A DNA stretch of 11,226 nucleotides from an uncultured Pseudomonadota bacterium (GTDB taxonomy: Bacteria > Pseudomonadota > Gammaproteobacteria > Burkholderiales > Burkholderiaceae_C): positions 1 through 11,226 of the forward strand of contig ONTY01000025.1 of assembly GCA_900320815.1 (NCBI GenBank). The letters are read 5' to 3'. Below are positions 868 through 10,247 of the stretch, piece by piece. Each line of letters starts with the position of its first letter. Within the stretch, counting starts at the first letter, position 1. Below the pieces are notes generated by a model, which saw nothing but the letters and a program-made list of their open reading frames with translations, made no database searches and was not told the origin of the DNA. Both the position numbers and the translations under genes were made by a program.

Positions 868-902
868 GAAAAAAAACAGCACCCGCGCGGGTTGCTGTTT
901 TT
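868..902 (-). terminator. Intrinsic terminator downstream of glmU (also in the lysE leader)
   Basis: Inverted repeat CAGCACCCGCG / CGCGGGTTGCTG with one bulged base, flanked by an A-run at 869-876 that becomes an eight-U run on the minus strand. The right flank has five T, so it could act weakly on the plus strand too. It lies 117 nt past the glmU stop codon and fits the end of the glmU transcript. It is also only 37 nt before the exporter start. Confidence 0.75.
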
Positions 903-919
903 CATGGGTATCAATGCTG

Positions 920-942
920 TCACCGGCGAATCATGCCGGTGA
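920..942 (+). repeat. Small hairpin repeat, copy A (7-nt loop, GATGA flank)
   Basis: Perfect 8-bp arms TCACCGGC (920-927) and GCCGGTGA (935-942) around the loop GAATCAT, continuing into TGA to give the GATGA flank seen in copies B and C. Compared with copies B and C, the first C-G-facing position is A-T here, a paired change that keeps the stem. It lies between the glmU stop codon and the glmU terminator. There is no U-run, so it is not itself a terminator. Confidence 0.6.
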
Positions 943-1018
943 TGAGGTGTGAATCATTGGTGTATTTGGAGAGTTCCCATCATCCTGCCCCTGCTGGCGC
1001 GGGGAAGAATGCCTTGCG

Positions 1019-2389
1019 TCAGCCTTTGCCTGGGCGCTGCCAGTCTTTGCGCAGCCGCTGCGGCGCACGGCGCACGGCGAGCACTGCGGGCGGCACCTCG
1101 CGCGTAATGACGCTGCCCGCGCCCACCGTGGCGCCCGCGCCCACGCGCACGGGGGCGACAAGGGTGCTGTTGCTGCCGATGTGCACATCGGCCTCAATCT
1201 CGGTGCGGTGCTTGTTGGCGCCGTCGTAGTTGGCGGTGATGCAGCCGGCACCGTAGTTCACGCGCGCGCCCACGCTGGCGTCGCCGAGATACGCGAGGTG
1301 GTTGGCCTTGGCGCCGGCGGCAAGCTGGCTGTTTTTTACTTCCACAAAGTTGCCCACGTGCACTTCGCGCCCGAGCTGCGCGCCGGGGCGCAGGCGCGCA
1401 AACGGCCCGACTTGCGCGCCCTCGCCCACGTCAATCGTCACGCCCGCCGCGCCGCCATCAATGTGCGTGAAGGGTGCGATGCGCGCGCCGGCGGCGATGC
1501 GCGCGTTGGCAATGCAGCAGTGCGCGCCGATGCGCACCTCGTCGCCAAGGTGCACCTCGCCCTCAAACACGCAGCCCACGTCAATTTCCACGTCCTGTCC
1601 GCAGCGCAGCGTGCCACGCACGTCCAGCCGCGCGGGGTCTGGCGTGTTCACACCGGCGGCTTGCGCGGCATCGGCAATGCACAGCGCCTGCACGCTGGCG
1701 CCAAGTGTGTGCGCGTGGTGCACCACGTCGGTCAGATACAGCTCGTGCTGCGCGTTGTTGTCGTCCAACATGCCGAGGCAGCGCCGCAGCAGCGCCACAG
1801 GCGCGGCGAGGCAGCCGCTGTACCACTCGGTTACAGCGAGTTCCTCCGGCGCGGCGTCGCGCGCTTCGCGGATGGCGCGCACTGCACCGTCTGCTTCGCG
1901 CAACACGCGCCCGTACGCGCCGGCATCGGCGCCTGTGTCCACCGTGAGCAGCGCCATGGTGCCGCTGCCAGCGCGCGCCAGCAGGCGGCGCAGCGTGTCT
2001 GTGTGCAGCATGGGGCCGTCGCCATTGAGGATGAGTGCCACGCCATCGTTGCCGAGCAGCGGCGCGGCCTGCTGCACGGCGTGGCCGGTGCCGCGCTGCG
2101 GCTGCTGGATGACGACGCGCAGCGCGCTGCCCTGTTCTTTTTCATTCCACGCGGCGCAAAACGCCTGCACTTGGCTCGCCGCGTGGCCGGCCACTACGGT
2201 GATGGAGCGCGCGCCAAGCGGCTGCACCGCGCGCAGCACATGCGCCAGCAGGGGCTGGCCGGCAAGCGGCTGGAGCACCTTGGCGCGGCGGCTTTTCATG
2301 CGCGTGCCACGGCCTGCGGCCATGATGGCGATGTCAAGCGGGGGAGCGTCCACAGGCGTGCTGGATATGGACGTGTTTTCCTGATTCAA
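1019..2389 (-). CDS. glmU: Bifunctional GlmU: N-acetylglucosamine-1-phosphate uridyltransferase / glucosamine-1-phosphate acetyltransferase, with a shortened interdomain linker
   Basis: Cytoplasmic enzyme for the last two steps of UDP-GlcNAc synthesis, feeding peptidoglycan and lipopolysaccharide. The N-terminal uridyltransferase domain shows AAGRGTRM (residues 24-31), QQPQRGTGHAVQQAAP, NGDGP (D124) and GVN (N248). The C-terminal left-handed beta-helix acetyltransferase shows hexapeptide repeats, GPFARLRPGA, VGNFVEVKN, H364 in KANHLAYLGD (E. coli H363), and NYDGANKHRT. The start is a TTG at 2389 with AGGAG 8 nt upstream, giving 456 residues, about the E. coli length; an in-frame ATG at 2485 would translate the hairpin repeat and non-conserved sequence. 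Two oddities: after GVN the chain runs straight into PDPARLDVRGTL, so about 26 residues of the usual helical linker are absent, and the usual GDVP reads GDGP. The normal total length arises because an extended N-terminus and small insertions offset the gap. Family comparison is from memory. Confidence 0.93.
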   Translation of the reverse strand: MNQENTSISSTPVDAPPLDIAIMAAGRGTRMKSRRAKVLQPLAGQPLLAHVLRAVQPLGARSITVVAGHAASQVQAFCAAWNEKEQGSALRVVIQQPQRGTGHAVQQAAPLLGNDGVALILNGDGPMLHTDTLRRLLARAGSGTMALLTVDTGADAGAYGRVLREADGAVRAIREARDAAPEELAVTEWYSGCLAAPVALLRRCLGMLDDNNAQHELYLTDVVHHAHTLGASVQALCIADAAQAAGVNTPDPARLDVRGTLRCGQDVEIDVGCVFEGEVHLGDEVRIGAHCCIANARIAAGARIAPFTHIDGGAAGVTIDVGEGAQVGPFARLRPGAQLGREVHVGNFVEVKNSQLAAGAKANHLAYLGDASVGARVNYGAGCITANYDGANKHRTEIEADVHIGSNSTLVAPVRVGAGATVGAGSVITREVPPAVLAVRRAPQRLRKDWQRPGKG

Positions 2390-2397
2390 GATTGATA

Positions 2398-2402
2398 CTC
2401 CT
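2398..2402 (-). promoter_or_regulatory. Ribosome binding site of glmU (decides the TTG start)
   Basis: AGGAG on the minus strand, eight bases before a TTG codon at 2389. No ATG within 60 nt has a comparable site, and this start gives a 456-residue GlmU. An AT-rich TATATA-containing stretch (about 2407-2414) just upstream could hold a -10 element, but no convincing -35 box is visible. Confidence 0.7.
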
Positions 2403-2417
2403 GCTTTATATATTGAA

Positions 2418-2440
2418 TCGCCGGCTTGTTGTGCCGGCGA
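2418..2440 (+). repeat. Small hairpin repeat, copy B
   Basis: Perfect 8-bp arms TCGCCGGC (2418-2425) and GCCGGCGA (2433-2440) around the 7-nt loop TTGTTGT, followed by TGA (GATGA flank). It sits about 29 bp upstream of the glmU start codon, so it is either in the promoter or in the 5' untranslated region. A TATATA island lies immediately to its left. Confidence 0.65.
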
Positions 2441-2519
2441 TGAAACGATACCTGGGAAATTTGACGATGCGGCAGAGGCAGGCAAGGGGGGGTGCCCTAC
2501 GCACAGCGGCTGGGGCGCC

Positions 2520-3719
2520 TTAGAGCAGCACTTCGGGCGTTTCGCCGCGCTCGTAAATCATGTGCGCGCGCCCGACGATGAGCGGGTCGAGCTTGCCGAT
2601 TTGCTGCATGTCTTTGCCCGCGTAGGGGAGTTTGAGCAGCACGTAGCGCATGGCGTTGAGCCGCGCGCGCTTTTTGCAGTCGCTTTTCACCACGGTCCAG
2701 GGGCAGTCGGCGGTGTCGGTTTCAAAGAACATGGCTTCCTTGGCGCGCGTGTAGTCGTCCCACTTGTCCAGGCTGGCGCGGTCAATGGGGCTGAGCTTCC
2801 ACTGCTTGAGCGGGTGGTTTTCGCGCTCCCTGAAGCGGCGCCGCTGCTCGGCGCGGCTGACGCTGAACCAGAACTTGATGAGGTGGATGCCGCTGCTGAC
2901 CAGATGGCGCTCGAACTCGGGCGCCTGGTGCACAAAGTCCTGATATTCCTTTTCGCTGCAAAAACCCATCACGCGCTCCACACCGGCGCGGTTGTACCAA
3001 CTGCGGTCAAAGAGCACGATTTCGCCGCGTGCGGGCAGGTGCTGCACATAACGCTGGAAGTACCACTGCCCGGCTTCAATCTCCGTGGGTTTTTCCAGCG
3101 CCACCACACGCGCGCCACGCGGGTTCAGGTGCTCCATGAAGCGTTTGATGGTGCCGCCCTTGCCGGCGGCATCCCGCCCCTCAAAGAGGATGAGCAGGCG
3201 CTGCCCCGTCTCTTTCACCCAGCTTTGCAGCTTGAGCAGCTCCACTTGCAGCTTGAACTTTTCCCTCTCATACACCGAGCGGCGCATCAGGTTTTTGTAG
3301 GGGTAGCCGCCTTCGCGCCAGTCCTCTGAGAGCACCTCGTCGGGGTTGATGCGCTCGGTTTTCAGCCCGGCAGAGCGCAGCGCGCGGCGCAGCGCCTTGC
3401 GGTCGTCGGGGGACGCCCCTTCCAGCAGCGCGCGCAGCCCGCGTGCCCTCTCGGCCACGGAGCCGGCGCTTTCATCGTCGAGCAGGCGGCGCACGGCGGC
3501 CAGCTGCGTGTCCTGCGAGGCTACGGTGGCGCGGCGCGCGACGTAGGCTTCAATGTCGGCGGCGTTGAGTGCGGGCGGTGTGTCGCCGCTTTGCACCGGG
3601 CGCACGTCGTCGTTGATGTCCAGCATGGCGCGGCTTTCGGCGCGCTCGGCGCTGATGGCGCTCTGTTCCTTGGCACTGGCTTTGGCTTTTTTCTTGCTTG
3701 CTTTGCTTGGTTCTGGCAT
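2520..3719 (-). CDS. ppk2: Polyphosphate kinase 2 (PPK2 family)
   Basis: A 399-residue P-loop kinase that moves phosphate between inorganic polyphosphate and nucleotides, acting in the cytoplasm in phosphate storage and nucleotide supply. Visible motifs are Walker A GRDAAGKGG (residues 181-189), the Walker B region VLFDRSWYNRAGVE (235-248), and the basic lid RRRFRERENHPLKQW (293-307). Other PPK2-typical segments are NPRGARVVALEKPT, EAGQWYFQRYV and LDKWDDYTRAKEAMF. The kinase core takes up about residues 135-385. The first 130 residues are a poorly conserved, charged extension beginning with a Lys/Ala-rich stretch (KASKKKAKASAKEQ). Whether it prefers ADP/ATP or GDP/GTP, or makes or consumes polyphosphate, cannot be decided here. 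The ATG at 3719 has only a weak GGAAA-like site. It is the middle gene of the leftward series, 83 bp after the cyclo-ligase and 130 bp before glmU. Confidence 0.93.
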   Translation of the reverse strand: MPEPSKASKKKAKASAKEQSAISAERAESRAMLDINDDVRPVQSGDTPPALNAADIEAYVARRATVASQDTQLAAVRRLLDDESAGSVAERARGLRALLEGASPDDRKALRRALRSAGLKTERINPDEVLSEDWREGGYPYKNLMRRSVYEREKFKLQVELLKLQSWVKETGQRLLILFEGRDAAGKGGTIKRFMEHLNPRGARVVALEKPTEIEAGQWYFQRYVQHLPARGEIVLFDRSWYNRAGVERVMGFCSEKEYQDFVHQAPEFERHLVSSGIHLIKFWFSVSRAEQRRRFRERENHPLKQWKLSPIDRASLDKWDDYTRAKEAMFFETDTADCPWTVVKSDCKKRARLNAMRYVLLKLPYAGKDMQQIGKLDPLIVGRAHMIYERGETPEVLL

Positions 3720-3752
3720 GGGAGTTTCCGTCTTTCGTGTGGCGAGTTGGCT

Positions 3753-3783
3753 TGAAAAAGAAAGGGCGCAAGGCTAACGCGCC
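3753..3783 (-). terminator. Possible intrinsic terminator after the cyclo-ligase gene
   Basis: On the minus strand, GGCGC and GCGCC (3779-3783 and 3765-3769) form a 5-bp stem with a 9-nt loop, followed by the pyrimidine-rich tract CTTTCTTTTTC. It starts 19 nt past the cyclo-ligase stop codon. The stem is short and the T-run is interrupted, so efficiency is uncertain. It lies about 35-45 nt before the ppk2 start. Confidence 0.4.
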
Positions 3784-3802
3784 GCACTTGCTGCGCCTGC
3801 GC

Positions 3803-4375
3803 TCAGGCAAAGCCCTCATCGGTGAGGATGGCCTCCAGCGGCACGTCGTGTGCGTCGCGCACCAGTTGCGGCGCCGCGCTGGATGCAAACGCCAGCCCCA
3901 GCGCAAACGGGCGCGCGCCGCGTGCGGCCAGCGCCGCCAGCGTGCGGTCGTAAAAGCCGCCGCCCCAGCCCAGCCGCACGCCGTGCGGCGCAAAGCCCAC
4001 GCACGGCACCAGCAGCAGCGCGGGCAGCATTGCTTCGCCCGCTGCTGGAATGGGGATGCCATAGTCATCCGCCGCCATTGCCGCGCCCGGCTGCCAGCGG
4101 CGAAACGTCAAGGTGTGCGTGGCTTTGTGCGCCAGTGGCAGCGCCGCGCGCCGGCGTGCATCGCCCGCCAGCCACTGCCGCACGGCGGGCAGCGGGTCAA
4201 ACTCGCCGCGAATGGGCCAATACGCGGCAAGCTGCGTTTCCGTGCGCTGCGCCAGATGCGCCAGCAGCCGCGCCTGCAGCGCCGCGCTGCGGCGGCTGCG
4301 CTCCGGCGGCGGCATCGCCGCGCGCTGGCGCAGCAGGCGCTGGCGCAGTCGTTTTTTGTCGTCCGGGGTATTCAT
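3803..4375 (-). CDS. fau: 5-formyltetrahydrofolate cyclo-ligase (methenyl-THF synthetase)
   Basis: A 190-residue protein, the family's usual size, that converts 5-formyl-THF plus ATP to 5,10-methenyl-THF and so returns a dead-end folate to one-carbon metabolism in the cytoplasm. Evidence is the signature GVRLGWGGGFYDRTLA (residues 132-147, family form GxRLGxGGGxYDR), AYWPIRGEFD (51-60), DDYGIPIP (103-110), LLVPCVGF (121-128) and the C-terminal DVPLEAILTDEG (177-188). In E. coli the gene is called ygfA/fau. The start at 4375 gives the basic N-terminus MNTPDDKKRLRQRLLRQR, normal for the family. It diverges from the lytic transglycosylase gene with only 9 bp between the two start codons, so its promoter and any ribosome binding site lie within the first codons of the neighbour. 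No strong Shine-Dalgarno site is seen. Confidence 0.93.
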   Translation of the reverse strand: MNTPDDKKRLRQRLLRQRAAMPPPERSRRSAALQARLLAHLAQRTETQLAAYWPIRGEFDPLPAVRQWLAGDARRRAALPLAHKATHTLTFRRWQPGAAMAADDYGIPIPAAGEAMLPALLLVPCVGFAPHGVRLGWGGGFYDRTLAALAARGARPFALGLAFASSAAPQLVRDAHDVPLEAILTDEGFA

Positions 4376-4384
4376 AATGCTTTG

Positions 4385-6439
4385 ATGAATTTTTCACGCA
4401 TTCTCTCCCCCCTCTGCGCCCTGCTGCTGGCGCTGGCTGGCTGCCACGCCGCCGCCCAGGAAACTCCCTTTCAAGCAGCGCCCGCCGCCACTGCTGCCAT
4501 CACGCCCGAAGCGGCGCTGCTGGAGATGAAAAACGCCGCGCGTCGCAAAGACGCTGCCCGCATCCACGCTCTGCTGCCCCTGGTGCAAGGGCACGCGCTG
4601 GCCGTGTGGGGCGAGTACTGGGCGCTCAAAGCGCGGCTGGACGATGCGGCGCCCGCCGAGGTGCAGGCGTTTGTGCACCGCTGGGCTGGCACGTATCAGG
4701 AAGACCGGCTGCGCGCCGACTGGCTGCTGCTGGCGGGCAAGCGCGGCGACTGGGGCGAGTTCGCCATCCACTATCCGCACTTTCGCATGCGCGACGACGC
4801 CAACCTGCGCTGCTGGGACATTGCGCGCCTGCTGGACGGCGGCACCGCCCCCGCCGCCGCCGACATTGCCGCAGCACTCGCGGGCTGGAATGAGCAGCGC
4901 AAAGAAAGCCAGGCCTGCCAGGCAGCGGCCACGCAGCTGCACGCGCGCCGCCTGATTGCCGACGCCGCCTTGTGGGACAAGGCACGCGCTGCTGTGCAAG
5001 ACAACCGCCCGCGCCTTGCCACCGCTGCCGTTGCCATCGCCTCCCAGGCGGCTGCCAGCGAACTTGCCGCCGCGCTGAACAAGCCGGAAATCTGGCTTGC
5101 ACGGCACGCCGCCAGCGACGCCACCGGGCAGCACATCGCCAGCCTTGCCCTGCTGCGCCTGGCGATGCGCGAGCCGCAGCGCGCCGCCGCCCTCATGGCT
5201 GGCGGCTGGCAGCAGCGCCTGCCCGAGGCGCTGCGCCCGCTCACCTGGGCGCTCATCGGCAAATGGGCCGCCATTCGCCACAGCGCCCAGCCTGACATTG
5301 CCGCTGCCGCCTTCGCCAACGTGCCCGCCAGCCTCCCGCCCGGCGCTGCCCTGCCCGATGAGCTGCTCATCTGGCGTGCCCGCTCTGCCGTGCGCCGCAG
5401 CAACTGGACCGAGCTACTCGCCGCCGTGGACGCCATGCAGCACCCGGACGCCGGCGACGGCGCTTGGGTGTATTGGCGCGCCCGCGCCCGCCTCGCCCTG
5501 CGGCAAGACACTGACGCCGCGCAGCAGGAGCTGCGGCAACTCGCCACCCGCGACGCGGGCGACGGCTTCTACCCGCGCCTGGCGCAGGAAGAACTCGGCC
5601 TTGCTGCGCCGCTTGGCGCCGAACCCGCCCAGGCACAAGCCATGCAGCAAAGCAGCCAATGGCAAGCCGTCCAGAACCACAACGGTCTGCGCCGCGCGCT
5701 GCTGGCCATCATGAGCGGGCTGCCCGGCGAAGGAGTGCGCGAATGGAACTACTGGACGCGCCTGCACACCGCAGGCGGCATGAGCGACGTGCAGCTCTAC
5801 GCTGCCGCGCACCTGGCGTGCAGCCACCACGTCTGGGACCGCTGCATCGCTGCCAGCGAACGCACCCGCGCCTTTGCTAGCGCCACGCAACGCTGGCCTC
5901 TGCCCTTGTACGACGACATCCAGCGCGCGGCGCGCGGCAGCGGTCTTTCTCCCGCGCTGCTCTACGGCCTCATCCATCAGGAAAGCCGCTTCGTGCCCAC
6001 CGCCGGTTCTGGCGCCGGTGCGCGTGGCCTCATGCAGCTCATGCCCGCCACCGCCCGCACCGTCGCGCGGCAGCTTGGACTGGCGGGCTACAGCGGCGCG
6101 CACATCACCGACGTTGCCACCAACCTGGCACTGGGCAGCGAATACCTGCGCCAGCAACTCGCGCGCTTTGACAACTCCTTCCCAATGGCAGCTGCCGCCT
6201 ACAACGCCGGTCCTGGACGCCCGCGCGAGTGGCGCGGCTACACGGCGATAGAAGGCGCCGCCTGGGTCGAATCCATCCCCTTCAACGAAACCCGCACCTA
6301 CGTCAAGCGCGTGCTGCACGCCACCCAGCACTACGCCACGCGCCTGGGCGGCCCCACCCCCACGCTGCACGCGCTGCTGGGCACCATCACGCCCCCGCCG
6401 CCTGAGCCTCTGGAAACAGAGGTGGATACTCCACAGTAA
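4385..6439 (+). CDS. slt: Lytic murein transglycosylase (Slt70-type), predicted lipoprotein
   Basis: A 684-residue enzyme that cleaves the MurNAc-GlcNAc bond of peptidoglycan to leave 1,6-anhydro-MurNAc ends, for wall turnover and remodelling. The N-terminus has a hydrophobic signal ending in the lipobox LAGC with C20 as the probable lipidated residue, so it is probably anchored to a periplasmic membrane face. Residues about 40-500 are an alpha-helical Ala/Leu/Trp-rich region like the superhelical ring of Slt70. The catalytic SLT domain (about 510-640) contains GLIHQESRF with catalytic E533, GLMQLMPATA (548-557) and AAAYNAGPGR (603-612). A proline-rich tail ends the protein. The frame is open far upstream, but the ATG at 4385 is chosen because it creates the signal peptide and because sequence before it is antisense to the cyclo-ligase. 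No good ribosome binding site is visible. Confidence 0.92.
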   Translation: MNFSRILSPLCALLLALAGCHAAAQETPFQAAPAATAAITPEAALLEMKNAARRKDAARIHALLPLVQGHALAVWGEYWALKARLDDAAPAEVQAFVHRWAGTYQEDRLRADWLLLAGKRGDWGEFAIHYPHFRMRDDANLRCWDIARLLDGGTAPAAADIAAALAGWNEQRKESQACQAAATQLHARRLIADAALWDKARAAVQDNRPRLATAAVAIASQAAASELAAALNKPEIWLARHAASDATGQHIASLALLRLAMREPQRAAALMAGGWQQRLPEALRPLTWALIGKWAAIRHSAQPDIAAAAFANVPASLPPGAALPDELLIWRARSAVRRSNWTELLAAVDAMQHPDAGDGAWVYWRARARLALRQDTDAAQQELRQLATRDAGDGFYPRLAQEELGLAAPLGAEPAQAQAMQQSSQWQAVQNHNGLRRALLAIMSGLPGEGVREWNYWTRLHTAGGMSDVQLYAAAHLACSHHVWDRCIAASERTRAFASATQRWPLPLYDDIQRAARGSGLSPALLYGLIHQESRFVPTAGSGAGARGLMQLMPATARTVARQLGLAGYSGAHITDVATNLALGSEYLRQQLARFDNSFPMAAAAYNAGPGRPREWRGYTAIEGAAWVESIPFNETRTYVKRVLHATQHYATRLGGPTPTLHALLGTITPPPPEPLETEVDTPQ

Positions 6440-6440
6440 A

Positions 6441-6553
6441 GGAGGCGCCTCAAAACTGCGGGAAGCGAGGATGTCCTGCCTGCAAAACTCCGCCGCAGCC
6501 GAGGGCAAGATGCCCTCGCTTCGCAGACTTGCAACGGGTTTTGAAGCGGCTCC
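6441..6553. repeat. 113-bp nested inverted-repeat (MITE/REP-like) element
   Basis: The outer 16-bp arms at 6441-6456 and 6538-6553 (GGAGGCGCCTCAAAAC and the reverse complement of GGAGCCGCTTCAAAAC) match at 14 of 16 positions. Inside, AAGCGAGG at 6463-6470 is repeated inverted as CCTCGCTT at 6514-6521, with CTGCG/CGCAG flanks. The innermost part has GAGGGC-AAGAT-GCCCTC (6501-6517) and AGGA-TG-TCCT. The whole can fold as one long hairpin with sub-hairpins. It begins 1 bp after the slt stop codon. No transposase ORF is present and no second copy occurs in this window, so mobility is inferred from structure only. Its ends carry no obvious target-site duplication. Confidence 0.65.
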
Positions 6554-6630
6554 ATAACACAAAATGAATGCCCTGGGTATATGGAGAAACGTGTACCGTA
6601 TGCTTTAAAAAAACAAGGACGCACAACATC

Positions 6631-7170
6631 ATGGACATCATCGTTACCTTACTCATTTATGCGCTCTATTGCTACCTTGTCATGCACAAAAGCATATTGG
6701 CGCTGCTGGCAGCCCTGGCATCAAGCCTGCTGCTTGTGGTGCCGTCGCTGAACTCCGCCATCGTTGTTATCGTCATACTGTGGCTTGGCGTCACGTGGGC
6801 AGCATATCTTGCCAAACTCCAGAATATTCTGGTGCAGCTTCTGGGATTGGGAGGCGTCATGCTCGTGATATCCATAGTGGAGAACTTTGCCGTATTGCTG
6901 TGCCTTGCCGCCATTTGGGCTCCATATATTGTTCGACACATCACCAGCACTACTTGCCGCGGCGCCAGCGTCTCTACCTCAGCACAGCGTCTGATATATA
7001 CAGCCATCGTCATTCTTATTCCCACTACCGTGATTCTTGGTTTTACTGCGTATGCCGTCACCCAGGATATTGTTCTCGACGCCCTGCCAGGTTGGCTCAA
7101 ATGGCCAATTGTGGCCGTTGGCGGCGCATGGGCAGGCGTGAAGTGGCTCAGCCGCAGTGGGCACAGATAA
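6631..7170 (+). CDS. Unrecognised multi-pass membrane protein
   Basis: A 179-residue, very hydrophobic protein that I do not recognise. Probable membrane segments lie at about residues 2-18 (IIVTLLIYALYCYLVM), 22-40, 43-61 (AIVVIVILWLGVTWAAYLA), 65-105 (long enough for two helices around VISIVENFAVLLCLAAIW) and 118-143 (LIYTAIVILIPTTVILGF), with a short last hydrophobic stretch WPIVAVGGAWAGV near the C-terminus. The loops are short, with TSTTCRGASVSTSAQR the longest. The ATG at 6631 is preceded by AAGGA at 6615-6619 with 11-nt spacing; an upstream in-frame ATG at 6568 would add a non-hydrophobic cysteine-bearing stretch and is less likely. The gene is clearly less GC-rich and more ATA/ATT-using than its neighbours, which may point to horizontal gain or weak selection. 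It follows the MITE-like element. No function is proposed. Confidence 0.7.
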   Translation: MDIIVTLLIYALYCYLVMHKSILALLAALASSLLLVVPSLNSAIVVIVILWLGVTWAAYLAKLQNILVQLLGLGGVMLVISIVENFAVLLCLAAIWAPYIVRHITSTTCRGASVSTSAQRLIYTAIVILIPTTVILGFTAYAVTQDIVLDALPGWLKWPIVAVGGAWAGVKWLSRSGHR

Positions 7171-7193
7171 GGGCGCCATGCTCAAGAGCGCCC
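7171..7193. terminator. GC hairpin directly after the membrane protein gene
   Basis: Perfect 6-bp arms GGGCGC (7171-7176) and GCGCCC (7188-7193) with an 11-nt loop start at the first base past the stop codon. No U-run follows on either strand, so this is at best a transcript-end stabiliser or a poor intrinsic terminator. Confidence 0.35.
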
Positions 7194-7240
7194 AAGGTGT
7201 CCGAACAGCACCTGCTGCAATTGGGGTATATTATATTTTT

Positions 7241-7262
7241 CCCGCATATCTTGCAGGTATGA
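7241..7262 (+). repeat. Possible degenerate copy of the small hairpin repeat (copy F)
   Basis: CCCGC (7241-7245), a 7-nt loop ATATCTT, then GCAGG (7253-7257) and TATGA. The layout matches copies A-D (same loop length, same kind of flank, AT-rich island TATATTATATTTTT to its left), but one stem pair is mismatched on the plus strand. Weak on its own. Confidence 0.3.
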
Positions 7263-7273
7263 AGATGCAAATC

Positions 7274-7292
7274 TGTGGAGTATTACTCCACA
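7274..7292. repeat. 19-bp palindrome over the msrAB stop codon
   Basis: TGTGGAGTA and TACTCCACA (9-bp arms) meet around a single T. It contains the TAA stop codon of msrAB (7283-7285). It may form the stem of a weak msrAB terminator on the minus strand, or be a symmetric protein site. A related sequence sits at the slt stop codon (6422-6434). Confidence 0.45.
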
Positions 7293-8311
7293 TACACCTT
7301 GTAGTCGCCATAGCCGCGCGCGTCCATCTCCTCATACGGGATGAACTCCAGCGCCGCGCCGTTGATGCAGTAGCGCATGCCGCCCTTGCCCGGCGGCCCA
7401 TCAGGGAAGACGTGCCCGAGGTGGCTGCCGCCGAGCGCGCTGCTGACTTCCGTGCGGCTCATGCCGTGGCTGCTGTCTTCGGCGTAGCTGATGGCGTCCG
7501 TGGTAATGGGGTGCGTGAAGCTCGGCCAGCCGCTGCCGGAATCAAACTTGTCGCTGCTGGCAAACAGCGGCTTTTTCGTCACCACGTCCACGTAGATGCC
7601 TTTTTTGTAGTTTTTATCCAGCGGGCTGGAAAACGGGCGCTCGGTGGCTTTTTCCTGCGTCACGGCGTAGGCGGTTTTGTCCAGCTTCTCTTTCAATACG
7701 CTTTTATCGGGCACGGCAAAGCGGCTTTCCGCGTGCACCGGCTGCGTGGCGCCGGCAAGGTTGACGTGGCAATAGCCGCGCGGGTTCTTGTCCAGATATT
7801 TCTGGTGATAGTCTTCGGCGGGCACGAAGTTTTTCAGCGGCTCCAGGGTAACGGCAAACGGCTTGTCGTGCTTTTTCTGCTCTTGAGCCACAAATGCGCG
7901 CACCGCCGCGCCCACGGCGCTGCCGGCGGCGCCGTCCTCTTCCCAGAAAATGCCGGTGCGGTATTGCACGCCCCGGTCACCCCCCTGCTTGTTGACGGAA
8001 AACGGGTCAATGATGCTGAAATACCGCGCGAGGATTTCGCCCGTGTGCACCACATTTTCGTCATACACCAGCCGCAGCGTTTCGGCGTGGCCGGTGGCGT
8101 GGATGCGCTGGTAATCGGTGTCGGCGCCTGCGCCGTTGGCGTAGCCCACCAGCGTTTCCTTCACGCCCGGCACGCGGTCAAAATAGCCCTGCACGCCCCA
8201 GAAGCAGCCGCCTGCCAGATAGATGGTTTTCATGTTTTCGCTCGCGTTTCCCTGCGCCTGCGCCAGCCCCATGCCAAGCGCCAGCGCGATGCCAAACAGC
8301 CAGGTTTTCAT
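7283..8311 (-). CDS. msrAB: Bifunctional peptide methionine sulfoxide reductase MsrA-MsrB, exported
   Basis: A 342-residue fusion that reduces both S- and R-methionine sulfoxide, like the MsrA-MsrB part of neisserial PilB. Residues 1-20 look like a signal peptide (MKTWLFGIALALGMGLAQAQ), so repair probably occurs in the periplasm. The MsrA domain (about 28-185) has GGCFWG with catalytic C36, GYANG, TGHAE, NKQGGDRG(V)QYR and GYCHVNL with probable resolving C181. The MsrB domain (about 210-340) has GIYVDVV, SGSGWPSF, SHLGHVFPDGP and RYCINGAALEF with catalytic C315. The usual recycling Cys of neisserial MsrB (SGCGWPSF) is Ser260 here, and C315 is the only Cys in that domain, so regeneration must differ. 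The thioredoxin-like domain of PilB is absent. The start at 8311 has AGGA six bases upstream; a longer in-frame start at 8374 would hide the signal peptide. Confidence 0.95.
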   Translation of the reverse strand: MKTWLFGIALALGMGLAQAQGNASENMKTIYLAGGCFWGVQGYFDRVPGVKETLVGYANGAGADTDYQRIHATGHAETLRLVYDENVVHTGEILARYFSIIDPFSVNKQGGDRGVQYRTGIFWEEDGAAGSAVGAAVRAFVAQEQKKHDKPFAVTLEPLKNFVPAEDYHQKYLDKNPRGYCHVNLAGATQPVHAESRFAVPDKSVLKEKLDKTAYAVTQEKATERPFSSPLDKNYKKGIYVDVVTKKPLFASSDKFDSGSGWPSFTHPITTDAISYAEDSSHGMSRTEVSSALGGSHLGHVFPDGPPGKGGMRYCINGAALEFIPYEEMDARGYGDYKVYVE

Positions 8312-8317
8312 CACTTG

Positions 8318-8321
8318 TCCT
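8318..8321 (-). promoter_or_regulatory. Ribosome binding site of msrAB
   Basis: AGGA (within AAAGGAC on the minus strand) lies six bases before the ATG at 8311. It supports this start over the in-frame ATG at 8374 and agrees with the signal peptide at the N-terminus. Confidence 0.65.
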
Positions 8322-8385
8322 TTCCGTGCGCGCCGCCCGCAACGCTGCAGCGCAGCAACGCCATTGTGCGACACACCGAAAAAAT

Positions 8386-8401
8386 CACATACCCAAATGT
8401 G
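8386..8401. promoter_or_regulatory. Short dyad in the msrAB / radical SAM intergenic region
   Basis: CACAT and ATGTG (5-bp arms, 6-bp spacer ACCCAA) in the 181-bp divergent region. It could be a half-site pair for a dimeric regulator of either gene, but 5-bp dyads occur by chance. It is recorded because of its position in the divergent promoter region. Confidence 0.2.
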
Positions 8402-8413
8402 TTATATTTGCTT

Positions 8414-8437
8414 GCCGGCCACATAAGCCGGCGATGA
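8414..8437 (+). repeat. Small hairpin repeat, copy C
   Basis: GCCGGC (8414-8419), 7-nt loop CACATAA, GCCGGC (8427-8432), then GATGA and a TATATATA run (8438 onward). It lies in the divergent region between msrAB and the radical SAM gene, about 55 bp before the latter's ATG. The TATATATACT run beside it could supply a -10 element, with no clear -35 box. Confidence 0.65.
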
Positions 8438-8492
8438 TATATATACTCATCCATTCTACAAAAAAGCGCCGCCCCACCTATCATCGCCGCCC

Positions 8493-10049
8493 ATGAAAGT
8501 CGCCCTCGTCAACGCCGCCCACCCCGCCATCGGTTCCCGCATGGCGGGCGAGCACTTGCCGCCGCTTGGCCTGCTGGCGATTGGCGGGCCGCTGCTGGAC
8601 GCAGGGCACGAGGTGCGCCTGTTTGACGGCGACTTTGCGGGTACGCCGCCCGCGCAGCTCGCGCAGCAGGTGGCCGCCGCGCGCCCGGACGCGGTGCTGC
8701 TGGGGCACTCCGGCTCATCCTCGGCGCAGCCGGTGCTGGACGAGGTGGCGCAGCGCGTGCGCGCGCTGCTGCCCGGCGCGCACATCATTCTGGGCGGCGT
8801 GTTTCCCACGTATCACTGGGCGGACATCCTGCGCCGCCAGCCGTGCTACGACGCCATCGTGCGCGGCGAGGGCGAGGAAACGGCGCTGCAACTTGTCAAT
8901 GCACTGGAGCGCGGCACGCCGCTGGACACAGTGCGCGGCATCGCCTGGCGCTGCGCCGGTGTGCCCGTGTGCAACGCGCCTGCGCCCATCACCTGCGACC
9001 TGGACGCGCACCGCGTGGCGTGGGATCTGATGGGGCAGCGCCGCTACACCTACTGGGGCGGGCAGCGCGCGGTGCTGTATCAGTTTTCGCGCGGCTGCAC
9101 GCATGCCTGCACCTACTGCGGGCAGCGTTTTTTCTGGCGCAAGTGGCGCTGCCGCGACCCGCAAAAAGCGGCGGCTGAAATCGCCATGCTGCACCGCGAC
9201 TACGGCGTGCGCGTCGTCAACTTTGCCGACGAAAGCCCGGCGGAGAACCAGGCGGCGTGGCGCGCGTTTCTGGAGGCGCTCATCCGCGAGCATCTGGATG
9301 GGCTGGCGCTGGTTGGCTCGATTCGCGCCGACCACGTGGTGCGCGACGCAGACTTTTTGCACCTCTACCGGCAGGCAGGCTTTGAGCGCTTTCTGCTGGG
9401 GCTGGAAAGCTATGACGAGGCAGTGCTGGCGCGCCTGAAAAAAGGCAGCGACACGCGCGTGGACGCCCGCGCCATCCGGCTGCTGCGGCAGCACGGCATC
9501 CTCTCCATGGCTACGCTTGGCGTGGGCTTTGGCGACGAGCGCCTGTCTGACTTTTGGCGCACGCTGCGCTGCCTGCTGCGCTACGACCCGGACCAGATTC
9601 AGTTCATGTATGCCACCCCGCACCGCTGGACGCCGTACTACAAACAGGTGCAAGACCGCGCCATCTGCCAGAGTGACCAGCGCAAGTGGGACTACCGCCA
9701 CCAAGTGCTGGCGCCGCAGCACATGCCGCCTTGGGCGGTGACGCTGTGCGTGAAGGCGATGGAAGCCGTGATGCAGGCGCGCCCGCGCGCCATCTGGCGC
9801 ACGCTGGCGCAGCCCGACGCGCGCCGCCGTGCGGCCATGCGCTGGTACTCGCGCATCGGCACGCGCGTGTGGTTTGCCGAGTTGTGGCGCGCCCTCGTAA
9901 CCGACGGCCAGGCGTGCCAGCGCACCACTGTGGCGCAGTTTTGGGCCGCGCCGGACGAAGCGCCGCCGCCCGCTGCGGCCATCCAGTTCGTGCCGAACGC
10001 TCCGGCATCTTCATATACTCCAATAGGAAAGGCTTCGTTGCCGGCGTAG
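8493..10049 (+). CDS. Cobalamin-binding radical SAM protein, BchE-like (anaerobic Mg-protoporphyrin IX monomethyl ester cyclase family)
   Basis: A 518-residue class B radical SAM enzyme. Residues 1-150 form a B12-binding (Rossmann-like) domain: KVALVNAAHP, LPPLGLLAIGGPLLDAGHEV, LFDGDF, HIILGGVFPTYH and VRGEGEETAL. The radical SAM domain (about 190-420) has CTHACTYC with cluster ligands C202, C206 and C209. It is followed by GQRFFWRKWRCRDP, VNFADESP (D246, E247), VGSIRADHV, FLLGLESYDE and YATPHRWTPYY. The FWRKxRxRDP, DExP and TPxxxTP elements resemble BchE, which makes ring E of bacteriochlorophyll anaerobically. However, no other pigment gene is in the window, and BchE-like proteins also occur in non-phototrophs, so the substrate is unknown. 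The ATG at 8493 gives a typical N-terminus but has no clear ribosome binding site. The last codons and the TAG stop lie inside hairpin copy D. Confidence 0.85.
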   Translation: MKVALVNAAHPAIGSRMAGEHLPPLGLLAIGGPLLDAGHEVRLFDGDFAGTPPAQLAQQVAAARPDAVLLGHSGSSSAQPVLDEVAQRVRALLPGAHIILGGVFPTYHWADILRRQPCYDAIVRGEGEETALQLVNALERGTPLDTVRGIAWRCAGVPVCNAPAPITCDLDAHRVAWDLMGQRRYTYWGGQRAVLYQFSRGCTHACTYCGQRFFWRKWRCRDPQKAAAEIAMLHRDYGVRVVNFADESPAENQAAWRAFLEALIREHLDGLALVGSIRADHVVRDADFLHLYRQAGFERFLLGLESYDEAVLARLKKGSDTRVDARAIRLLRQHGILSMATLGVGFGDERLSDFWRTLRCLLRYDPDQIQFMYATPHRWTPYYKQVQDRAICQSDQRKWDYRHQVLAPQHMPPWAVTLCVKAMEAVMQARPRAIWRTLAQPDARRRAAMRWYSRIGTRVWFAELWRALVTDGQACQRTTVAQFWAAPDEAPPPAAAIQFVPNAPASSYTPIGKASLPA

Positions 10050-10063
10050 ATTGCTGGTATATG
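10040..10063 (+). repeat. Small hairpin repeat, copy D, overlapping the radical SAM stop codon
   Basis: GCCGGC (10040-10045), 7-nt loop GTAGATT, GCTGGT (10053-10058), then ATATGA. The stem pairs fully if two G-U pairs are allowed. The TAG stop codon (10047-10049) is in the loop. An extra dyad GGTAT / ATACC (10056-10060 / 10069-10073) overlaps its right arm. Confidence 0.5.
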
Positions 10064-10247
10064 AATTAATACCTAGTGTTTTGTGACTCTTCGATAGGGA
10101 ATCCATCTCTTGCCATCGCGATTGCAGAGGTGAAGTTTTTTTGTGGCAACGAGCGAACACGCTGAGCTTCATCCCTAGGGTATTTTTTGCTTGCCGGCAA
10201 AAAATGAGGGCAAAAGGATGTATTGAGCAGGAGTATTTGAAAGTTGG
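10050..10247. other. Non-coding AT-richer stretch between the radical SAM and DUF2726 genes
   Basis: No ORF here has the codon bias of the neighbouring genes, and no tRNA or known riboswitch is recognised. The stretch holds the right part of hairpin D, an 8-bp palindrome CCCTAGGG, and a 24-nt palindrome at 10182-10205 with perfect 9-bp arms ATTTTTTGC / GCAAAAAAT. The latter shares GCTTGCCGGC with hairpin copy C and may be a decayed relative or a weak terminator for the radical SAM gene. Confidence 0.5.

Follow-up and report, generated by a model that had tools for sequence, protein, structure and literature searches.

The window analysed here is contig ONTY01000025.1 of assembly GCA_900320815.1 (11,226 nucleotides, the whole stretch), from an uncultured bacterium of the Burkholderiales, and it raises the question of what a scatter of very small hairpins may represent. 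A preliminary description had recorded three clear copies of a GCCGGC stem with a 7-nt loop and a GATGA flank, one copy with G-U pairs and one decayed candidate; all five were found where they had been placed. Sequence comparison establishes that the hairpin is a real repeat but only the centre of a longer unit, bounded by two ATAC boxes. The unit has a fixed geometry and hundreds of copies, lies outside genes with a preference for convergent gaps, has a covarying stem and, in relatives, has counterparts in which the same boxes enclose another stem.

The window is contig C182 of a metagenome-assembled genome (MAG) of 2.10 Mb in 339 contigs, 81% complete, here called G000. A second genome with the same repeat, G027, is taken as the Ottowia sp. 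RGIG2912 MAG from goat omasum (97% complete). Copies were collected by a weight-matrix scan of 1.55 Mb, made up of 962 kb from G027 plus 592 kb from G000; the reversed sequences served as control. The contigs of G000 and most early contigs of G027 were picked for carrying copies. An unselected sample is formed by 444 kb of G027, namely contigs C1-C65 taken by number (60 contigs, L153-L212) without C13, C26, C29, C32 and C36, which had been fetched earlier for their copies. Genes were called by a codon-bias script of our own.

The repeat unit and its copies

A genome-wide search for the hairpin pattern, proposed earlier as a check, gave 23 matches to the strict form RCCGGC-N7-GCCGGY-GATGA in the genome of the window, and none to the reversed pattern. 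In the window alone, with up to two mismatches allowed, the enrichment is mild: 19 matches were found against 11.4 (sd 3.65) in shuffled sequences, and 10 of 200 shuffles reach 19. Alignment of 22 strict-pattern genome matches with their flanks revealed a unit of 59-60 bases, in which ATACYC, 19 nt, stem, 7-nt loop, stem, 9-10 nt and ATACYC follow each other. The two boxes are in direct orientation, 53 or 54 bp apart, which corresponds to about five turns of DNA, and the centre of the palindrome lies 34 bases past the first base of the left box.

The weight matrix detected 634 copies, 397 in G027 and 237 in G000, and none in the reversed control. The 153 copies of the unselected sample correspond to about 690 per 2.0 Mb, or about one per 2.9 kb. 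In a whole-genome search with a covariance model, 127 of 150 scored candidates match in G000 and 149 of 150 in G027; as the number of candidates scored is capped, both figures are lower bounds for the copy number.

The ATAC boxes are the most conserved part of the element. The left ATAC is exact in 612 of the 634 copies (385/397 in G027, 227/237 in G000), and both boxes are exact in 351 of 397 and 216 of 237, respectively. A count of ATACY-to-ATACY distances, made independently of any hairpin model, gave 293 at 53 and 21 at 54 in G027 (reversed control mean 1.1 per distance), and 160 at 53 and 60 at 54 in G000 (control mean 1.7). The remaining distances with at least eight counts are 83 (16) and 84 (8) in G027, and 13 (8) and 46 (11) in G000; 83 and 84 are also the commonest start-to-start distances among tandem copies.

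Six copies, three per strand when oriented by their boxes, are contained in the window:

906..965, minus strand: Copy A; boxes ATACAC at 960-965 (left) and ATACCC at 906-911 (right), 54 bp apart, hairpin 920-942
2395..2453, plus strand: Copy B; boxes ATACTC at 2395-2400 (left) and ATACCT at 2448-2453 (right), 53 bp apart, hairpin 2417-2441
7224..7283, minus strand: Copy E, the decayed candidate; boxes ATACTC at 7278-7283 (left) and ATACCC at 7224-7229 (right), 54 bp apart
8389..8448, plus strand: Copy C; boxes ATACCC at 8389-8394 (left) and ATACTC at 8443-8448 (right), 54 bp apart, hairpin 8413-8433
10015..10074, plus strand: Copy D, with G-U pairs; boxes ATACTC at 10015-10020 (left) and ATACCT at 10069-10074 (right), 54 bp apart
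10178..10236, minus strand: Copy F; boxes ATACTC at 10231-10236 (left) and ATACCC at 10178-10183 (right), 53 bp apart

Copy F had been overlooked. The earlier assignment of all copies to the plus strand, on the ground of the GATGA flank, does not hold for A, E and F; since 6 of the 22 aligned copies are better oriented against GATGA, this flank gives no direction. Folded as single-stranded DNA, Copy B reaches -11.9 kcal/mol (z -5.06) and Copy C has a z of -2.61, while for Copy D (stem region 10040-10058, z -0.78) the full form is absent from the minimum-energy fold. The stem region is broken in Copy E (7240-7258, matrix score 32.3) and mismatched in Copy F (10193-10211, matrix score 61.0), yet both keep an exact ATAC at both ends. 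An intrinsic terminator reading was rejected for lack of a T-run, as the preliminary description had argued; in L182 a terminator-like hairpin of the ordinary kind can be seen next to a copy. A strong inverted repeat adjoining Copy A in the window (869-902), preceded by an A-run and followed by a T-run, is probably a two-way terminator.

Placement, stem pairing and age of the copies

The proposal of a dispersed, mostly intergenic repeat is borne out by 594 of 634 copies lying mainly outside predicted genes. Mainly coding copies number 18 of 397 in G027 and 22 of 237 in G000, where the coding fractions are 0.85 and 0.82, and 9 of 153 in the unselected sample. In this sample 26 of the 45 convergent gaps hold at least one copy, whereas among the 233 tandem gaps the number is 61 and among the 50 divergent ones 7; occupancy in the selected stretches (convergent 73/112 and 41/65) is biased upward because contigs were picked for their copies. 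Within tandem gaps, the median distances to the upstream stop and to the downstream start are 24 versus 82 nt in G027 and 63 versus 104 nt in G000, and at some loci (L171, L129) the element is the entire gap between two genes. Relative to tandem genes, 148 copies have the same and 138 the opposite direction over all stretches (103/82 in G027, 45/56 in G000), compared with 50 and 30 in the unselected sample, and a weak direction bias may thus be present. A strand bias relative to the replication origin, another check suggested at the outset, is weak (Fisher P 0.038 uncorrected, Spearman P 0.14).

Neighbouring copies show preferred arrangements. Among pairs with left ends facing and less than 200 bp apart, 42 of 63 are spaced 74/75 bp. 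In pairs with facing right ends the spacing is periodic at about 11.5 bp (P 0.0005), and all classes combined give P 0.0055; phasing in the other two pair classes is not significant (P 0.22 and 0.46). These values derive from a stricter test, which replaces a first one set aside as too generous because neighbouring distances are not independent.

Some copies are associated with genes in particular ways. Some copies within predicted genes are repeated in tandem and are read as part of a repeat protein (L226 10038-10324, in 108-bp steps; L118 4755-5857), and at L182 3166-3261 the stop codon of a predicted gene falls in the loop of a copy, so that the last residues would be encoded by the element. 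Several members of an ankyrin-type lipoprotein gene family (L180, L187, L113, L114) are followed by a copy, seemingly duplicated along with the gene. Pfam matches of the window genes include a LysE translocator, a GlmU-like nucleotidyl/acyl transferase, PPK2, a 5-FTHF cyclo-ligase, an SLT transglycosylase, an MsrA-MsrB fusion and a B12-binding radical SAM protein; a DUF2726 protein scores slightly below the Pfam cut-off, and a small hydrophobic protein (6631-7170) has no Pfam match.

Compensatory stem changes, suspected from the window copies, are confirmed at stem pair 34:46, which is GC in 449 of the 634 copies, CG in 44 (43 of them in G000) and AT in 10. Pairing at these positions exceeds that of column shuffles, which ignore kinship among copies, within each genome (z 8.4 in G027, 7.1 in G000); the pooled z of 14.4, which is inflated by the difference in stem type between the two genomes, was dropped in favour of these values. 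The CG copies have a mean mutual identity of 0.49, versus 0.50 for copies generally, and are therefore not the product of one recent burst. In G027 the left arm is at most one mismatch away from GCCGGC in 386 of 397 copies, and an alternative AGCGC type, found in relatives, occurs in none; this near-uniformity points to turnover by copying within the lineage. Stems of G000 are less well kept than its boxes.

The median identity of the 634 copies to their nearest neighbour is 0.70, versus 0.67 after column shuffling. Most copies therefore look old, yet their boxes are kept. A neighbour above 0.77 identity exists for 78 copies, and for none after shuffling. Only 75 of 634 copies score below 40 bits, with a mode at 60-65, at the search threshold used. 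Forty-nine pairs exceed 0.78 identity and, among the 32 listed, some have unrelated flanks; one such case, with one copy per species (L120:9526 and L149:3710), is 86% identical.

Sixty-five gene pairs are adjacent in both genomes. Copies occupy both gaps in 5 cases, the G027 gap only in 4, the G000 gap only in 2 and neither in 54. The six pairs of same-direction copies in shared gaps are all identical at 12 key positions (left box and stem core), while their spacers are 28-66% identical; the corresponding values for random pairs are 93% and 35%. One shared gap (L134 and L181) differs between the genomes: G000 has an inverted pair there, G027 a single hairpin flanked on both sides by a right-type box, which we read as a sign that two copies may have recombined at their stems.

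Related box pairs and known repeats

Among the candidates scored, the covariance model matched 2 of 29 genomes of the genus, and no other genome among 60 relatives or 399 of the family; one of these searches scored 84 and another 12 candidates per genome, under stricter filters, the latter on a family draw without G027. Spread of the GCCGGC form beyond G000 and G027 finds no support: a contig scan gave 42 stretches, of which 41 turned out to be in RGIG2912 and one, unmatched by the model, in a Bifidobacteriaceae MAG (L083). A viral hit (L112) matches the model only partly (E 0.15), and seven other viral hits (L266-L272) have no match to it.

The boxes alone reach further. Pairs of the form ATACYC-N47/48-ATACYC number 109 in G003 (control 1), 28 in G008 (2), 8 in G023 (0), 4 in G014 (0) and, in a genome of another genus, G067, 270 (2); the remaining family genomes drawn have only 0-4 pairs (controls 0-7). 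Many of the listed interiors contain an AGCGC..GCGCT palindrome: among 50 listed rows of G003, AGCGC occurs in 42 and GCGC in 44 at symmetric places. Pairing in these rows is strongest about the centre that the window family uses (mean Watson-Crick fraction 0.66, versus at most 0.33 at 12 other centres), and in 89 listed rows of G067 the pairing excess is again highest there (0.31, the next of 16 centres being 0.20). At the level of sequence, the box geometry is thus common to relatives, although the letters of the stem differ.

A palindrome GCTGCT-AGCGCTT-N7-AAGCGCT-AGAGGC, a motif known from Comamonadaceae, is found on an Acidovorax plasmid (L253 600-632), and its core pattern in 12 viral contigs (L254-L265). 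It shares AGCGC..GCGCT with the stems of G003, G008 and G067 but differs in having no ATAC at the places of the boxes, on either strand, in the plasmid and the 12 viral contigs; TTACTCC stands near the left box place in the plasmid copy. A literature search turned up no paper on this palindrome.

Among known repeats, the closest parallel is offered by repetitive extragenic palindromes (REPs), described as high-copy, palindromic and intergenic sequences, placed between convergent or unidirectional genes and near 3' ends, occurring in inverted pairs, with compensatory stem subfamilies, and consisting of 20-40 bp with one tag (PMC3733652). The element resembles those of the GTAG and CGTC superfamilies in copy number, placement, pairs, palindrome and stem subfamilies, and differs in being 59-60 bp long and bounded by two ATAC boxes. 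The tags themselves, which in REPs stand unpaired at one end of the stem, are rare: GTAG lies within 11 nt of a stem foot in 4 of 397 copies of G027 and 6 of 237 of G000, CGTC in 34 and 9. In the REP-RAYT system, dispersed palindromes are thought to be moved by a tyrosine transposase (PMC2817692). The element, too, is a dispersed palindrome; a Y1 transposase match is present in 21 of the 29 genomes of the genus, and no box pair was detected within the 1.2-1.3 kb stretches around four Y1-type loci (one in G003, two in G008, one in G023). Beside the G003 locus there is one lone box, and in G008 (C211) the Y1-type open frame has, at a distance of about 80 bp, a box-less AGCGC..GCGCT palindrome, which could be read the other way. 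A member of REP-RAYT should have a RAYT gene between two inverted copies; membership is not supported as far as these tests reach, given the rare tags, the lack of a Y1 match in G027 and the lack of box pairs beside the four Y1-type loci.

A further likeness, to be taken as a lead only, concerns the left end of IS608, which has a TTAC/C cleavage site and a guide ending at +18 (PMC5934647); on our reading its hairpin therefore starts near +19. In the element, ATAC/Y is followed by a hairpin at +20, so that both would present a tetranucleotide ending in AC, a pyrimidine and then a hairpin. IS200/IS605 ends carry one cleavage tetranucleotide at a set distance 5' of a hairpin and another 3' of a hairpin; the box-hairpin-box geometry is similar, and the boxes might likewise be cleaved. 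The element differs in its single hairpin serving both sides and in having no gene and no constant guide. From the Beta-proteobacterial repeat element (BRE), another short, usually intergenic repeat of Betaproteobacteria including Comamonadaceae, it is set apart by its size, copy number and base composition and with regard to tandem arrangement, as far as the description of BRE goes (about 90 bp, 69% GC in Bordetella, up to 29 copies detected per genome, often in tandem; PMC3110155).

In keeping with the initial failure to recognise a family, Rfam gave no match in the window at the gathering score. Three 20-kb stretches searched at E<=1 yielded two matches, both under their gathering scores: one to sraA (E 0.83), overlapping a copy by 19 bases, and another near no copy, a weak match to AsdA, the antisense RNA of dnaA, at L226 14477-14553. 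Literature searches among open-licence papers brought up no description of this repeat family.

Possible spread and retention of the element

The reading preferred here, tentatively and somewhat short of even confidence, is that of a REP-like repeat recognised through its hairpin, which would have spread by copying and would now be mostly retained as DNA-level sites. Copying would have been driven by a putative protein recognising the folded hairpin, with the boxes as its sequence-specific, possibly strand-cleavage, sites, much as HUH enzymes do for IS200/IS605 elements. Copying would by now be rare in the rumen Ottowia lineage, and the copies would persist between genes as sites of a protein acting at the DNA level, with drift everywhere except in boxes and stem. 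This reading is favoured because it covers, with the fewest assumptions, the fixed spacing, the fixed centre, the pairing without fixed letters and the genome-wide stem type; it also explains gain and loss at orthologous gaps and the few recent copies.

Several observations weigh against it. No match to the Y1 transposase domain (Y1_Tnp) was obtained in G027, and G000 has a single one, covering positions 31-121 of 121 (L024, in a 158-aa frame). The sequence around the L024 match resembles an IS605-type element. A guide of the IS608 kind did not emerge: the tetranucleotides at the stem foot vary (CATC, CATT, GGTT and others), in contrast to the almost invariable ATAC. Among the 32 listed close pairs, at least 10 also share flanks (duplicated ankyrin-type genes, tandem coding repeats, segments) and are therefore gene or segment duplications rather than products of element copying. 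The syntenic argument comes from six pairs, and copies were found partly through the conserved positions. None of the five stem pairs besides 34:46 covaries in both genomes: the signal is confined to G027 for 31:49 (z 3.6) and 32:48 (z 4.9) and to G000 for 30:50 (z 4.9), and the nearly invariant 33:47 and 35:45 give none. Finally, only 67 of 237 G000 stems are fully paired, and 59 of 237 left arms are two or more bases off GCCGGC.

The evidence of copying, the lineage-wide stem types and the missing Y1 match in G027 would also suit a purely selfish miniature element, its transposase lost or missed, in which boxes and stem are what the transposase needed and the host has no present use for them. 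Such an element appears unlikely in view of the few decayed copies at the search threshold and because most copies look old yet keep their boxes. The 53/54 spacing can also be read as placing two contacts on one face of the DNA, about five turns apart, in a double-stranded site for a nucleoid or topology protein acting mainly between convergent genes. Gap occupancy in the unselected sample and the phasing of right-ends-facing copies agree with this; the other two pair classes are unphased, and stem covariation and stem replacement are unexpected for a plain double-strand contact, so that we hold it to be improbable.

A role in RNA processing or stability, suggested by the preliminary description, finds slight backing in direction, as most copies follow tandem genes in the unselected sample but barely more than half do overall. 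An RNA element at 3' ends, serving messenger stability or factor-dependent termination, would also account for the foldable stem and for the position nearer the upstream stop than the downstream start, and the depletion at pair 30:50 is weaker for T-G than for C-A. At 31:49 and 36:44, in turn, G-T is tolerated no better than A-C, there is no T-run, and directions are almost balanced over all stretches despite the strong asymmetry of the element; an RNA function is accordingly rated as quite improbable. High density, occurrence in both directions and inverted pairs recall a DNA uptake signal, a role that must be considered very improbable, as copies are rare in predicted coding DNA (40/634) and known uptake words are far shorter than the element.

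Returning to recognition by a protein, it is possible, though doubtful, that the element is composite and represents a new class, in which a candidate protein would read both the pair of ATAC boxes, about five helical turns apart, and a hairpin of free sequence. If so, whole genomes could swap the stems of hundreds of copies for others, with no change across genera in the distance between the boxes or in the centre of the hairpin. The element makes up a major part of what lies between the genes of these bacteria, and more than half of the convergent gaps of the unselected sample contain it. Its fixed box geometry and exchangeable stem offer a direct handle on how small, tag-less palindromic repeats with which no RAYT (REP-associated tyrosine transposase) is found are recognised, spread and retained.

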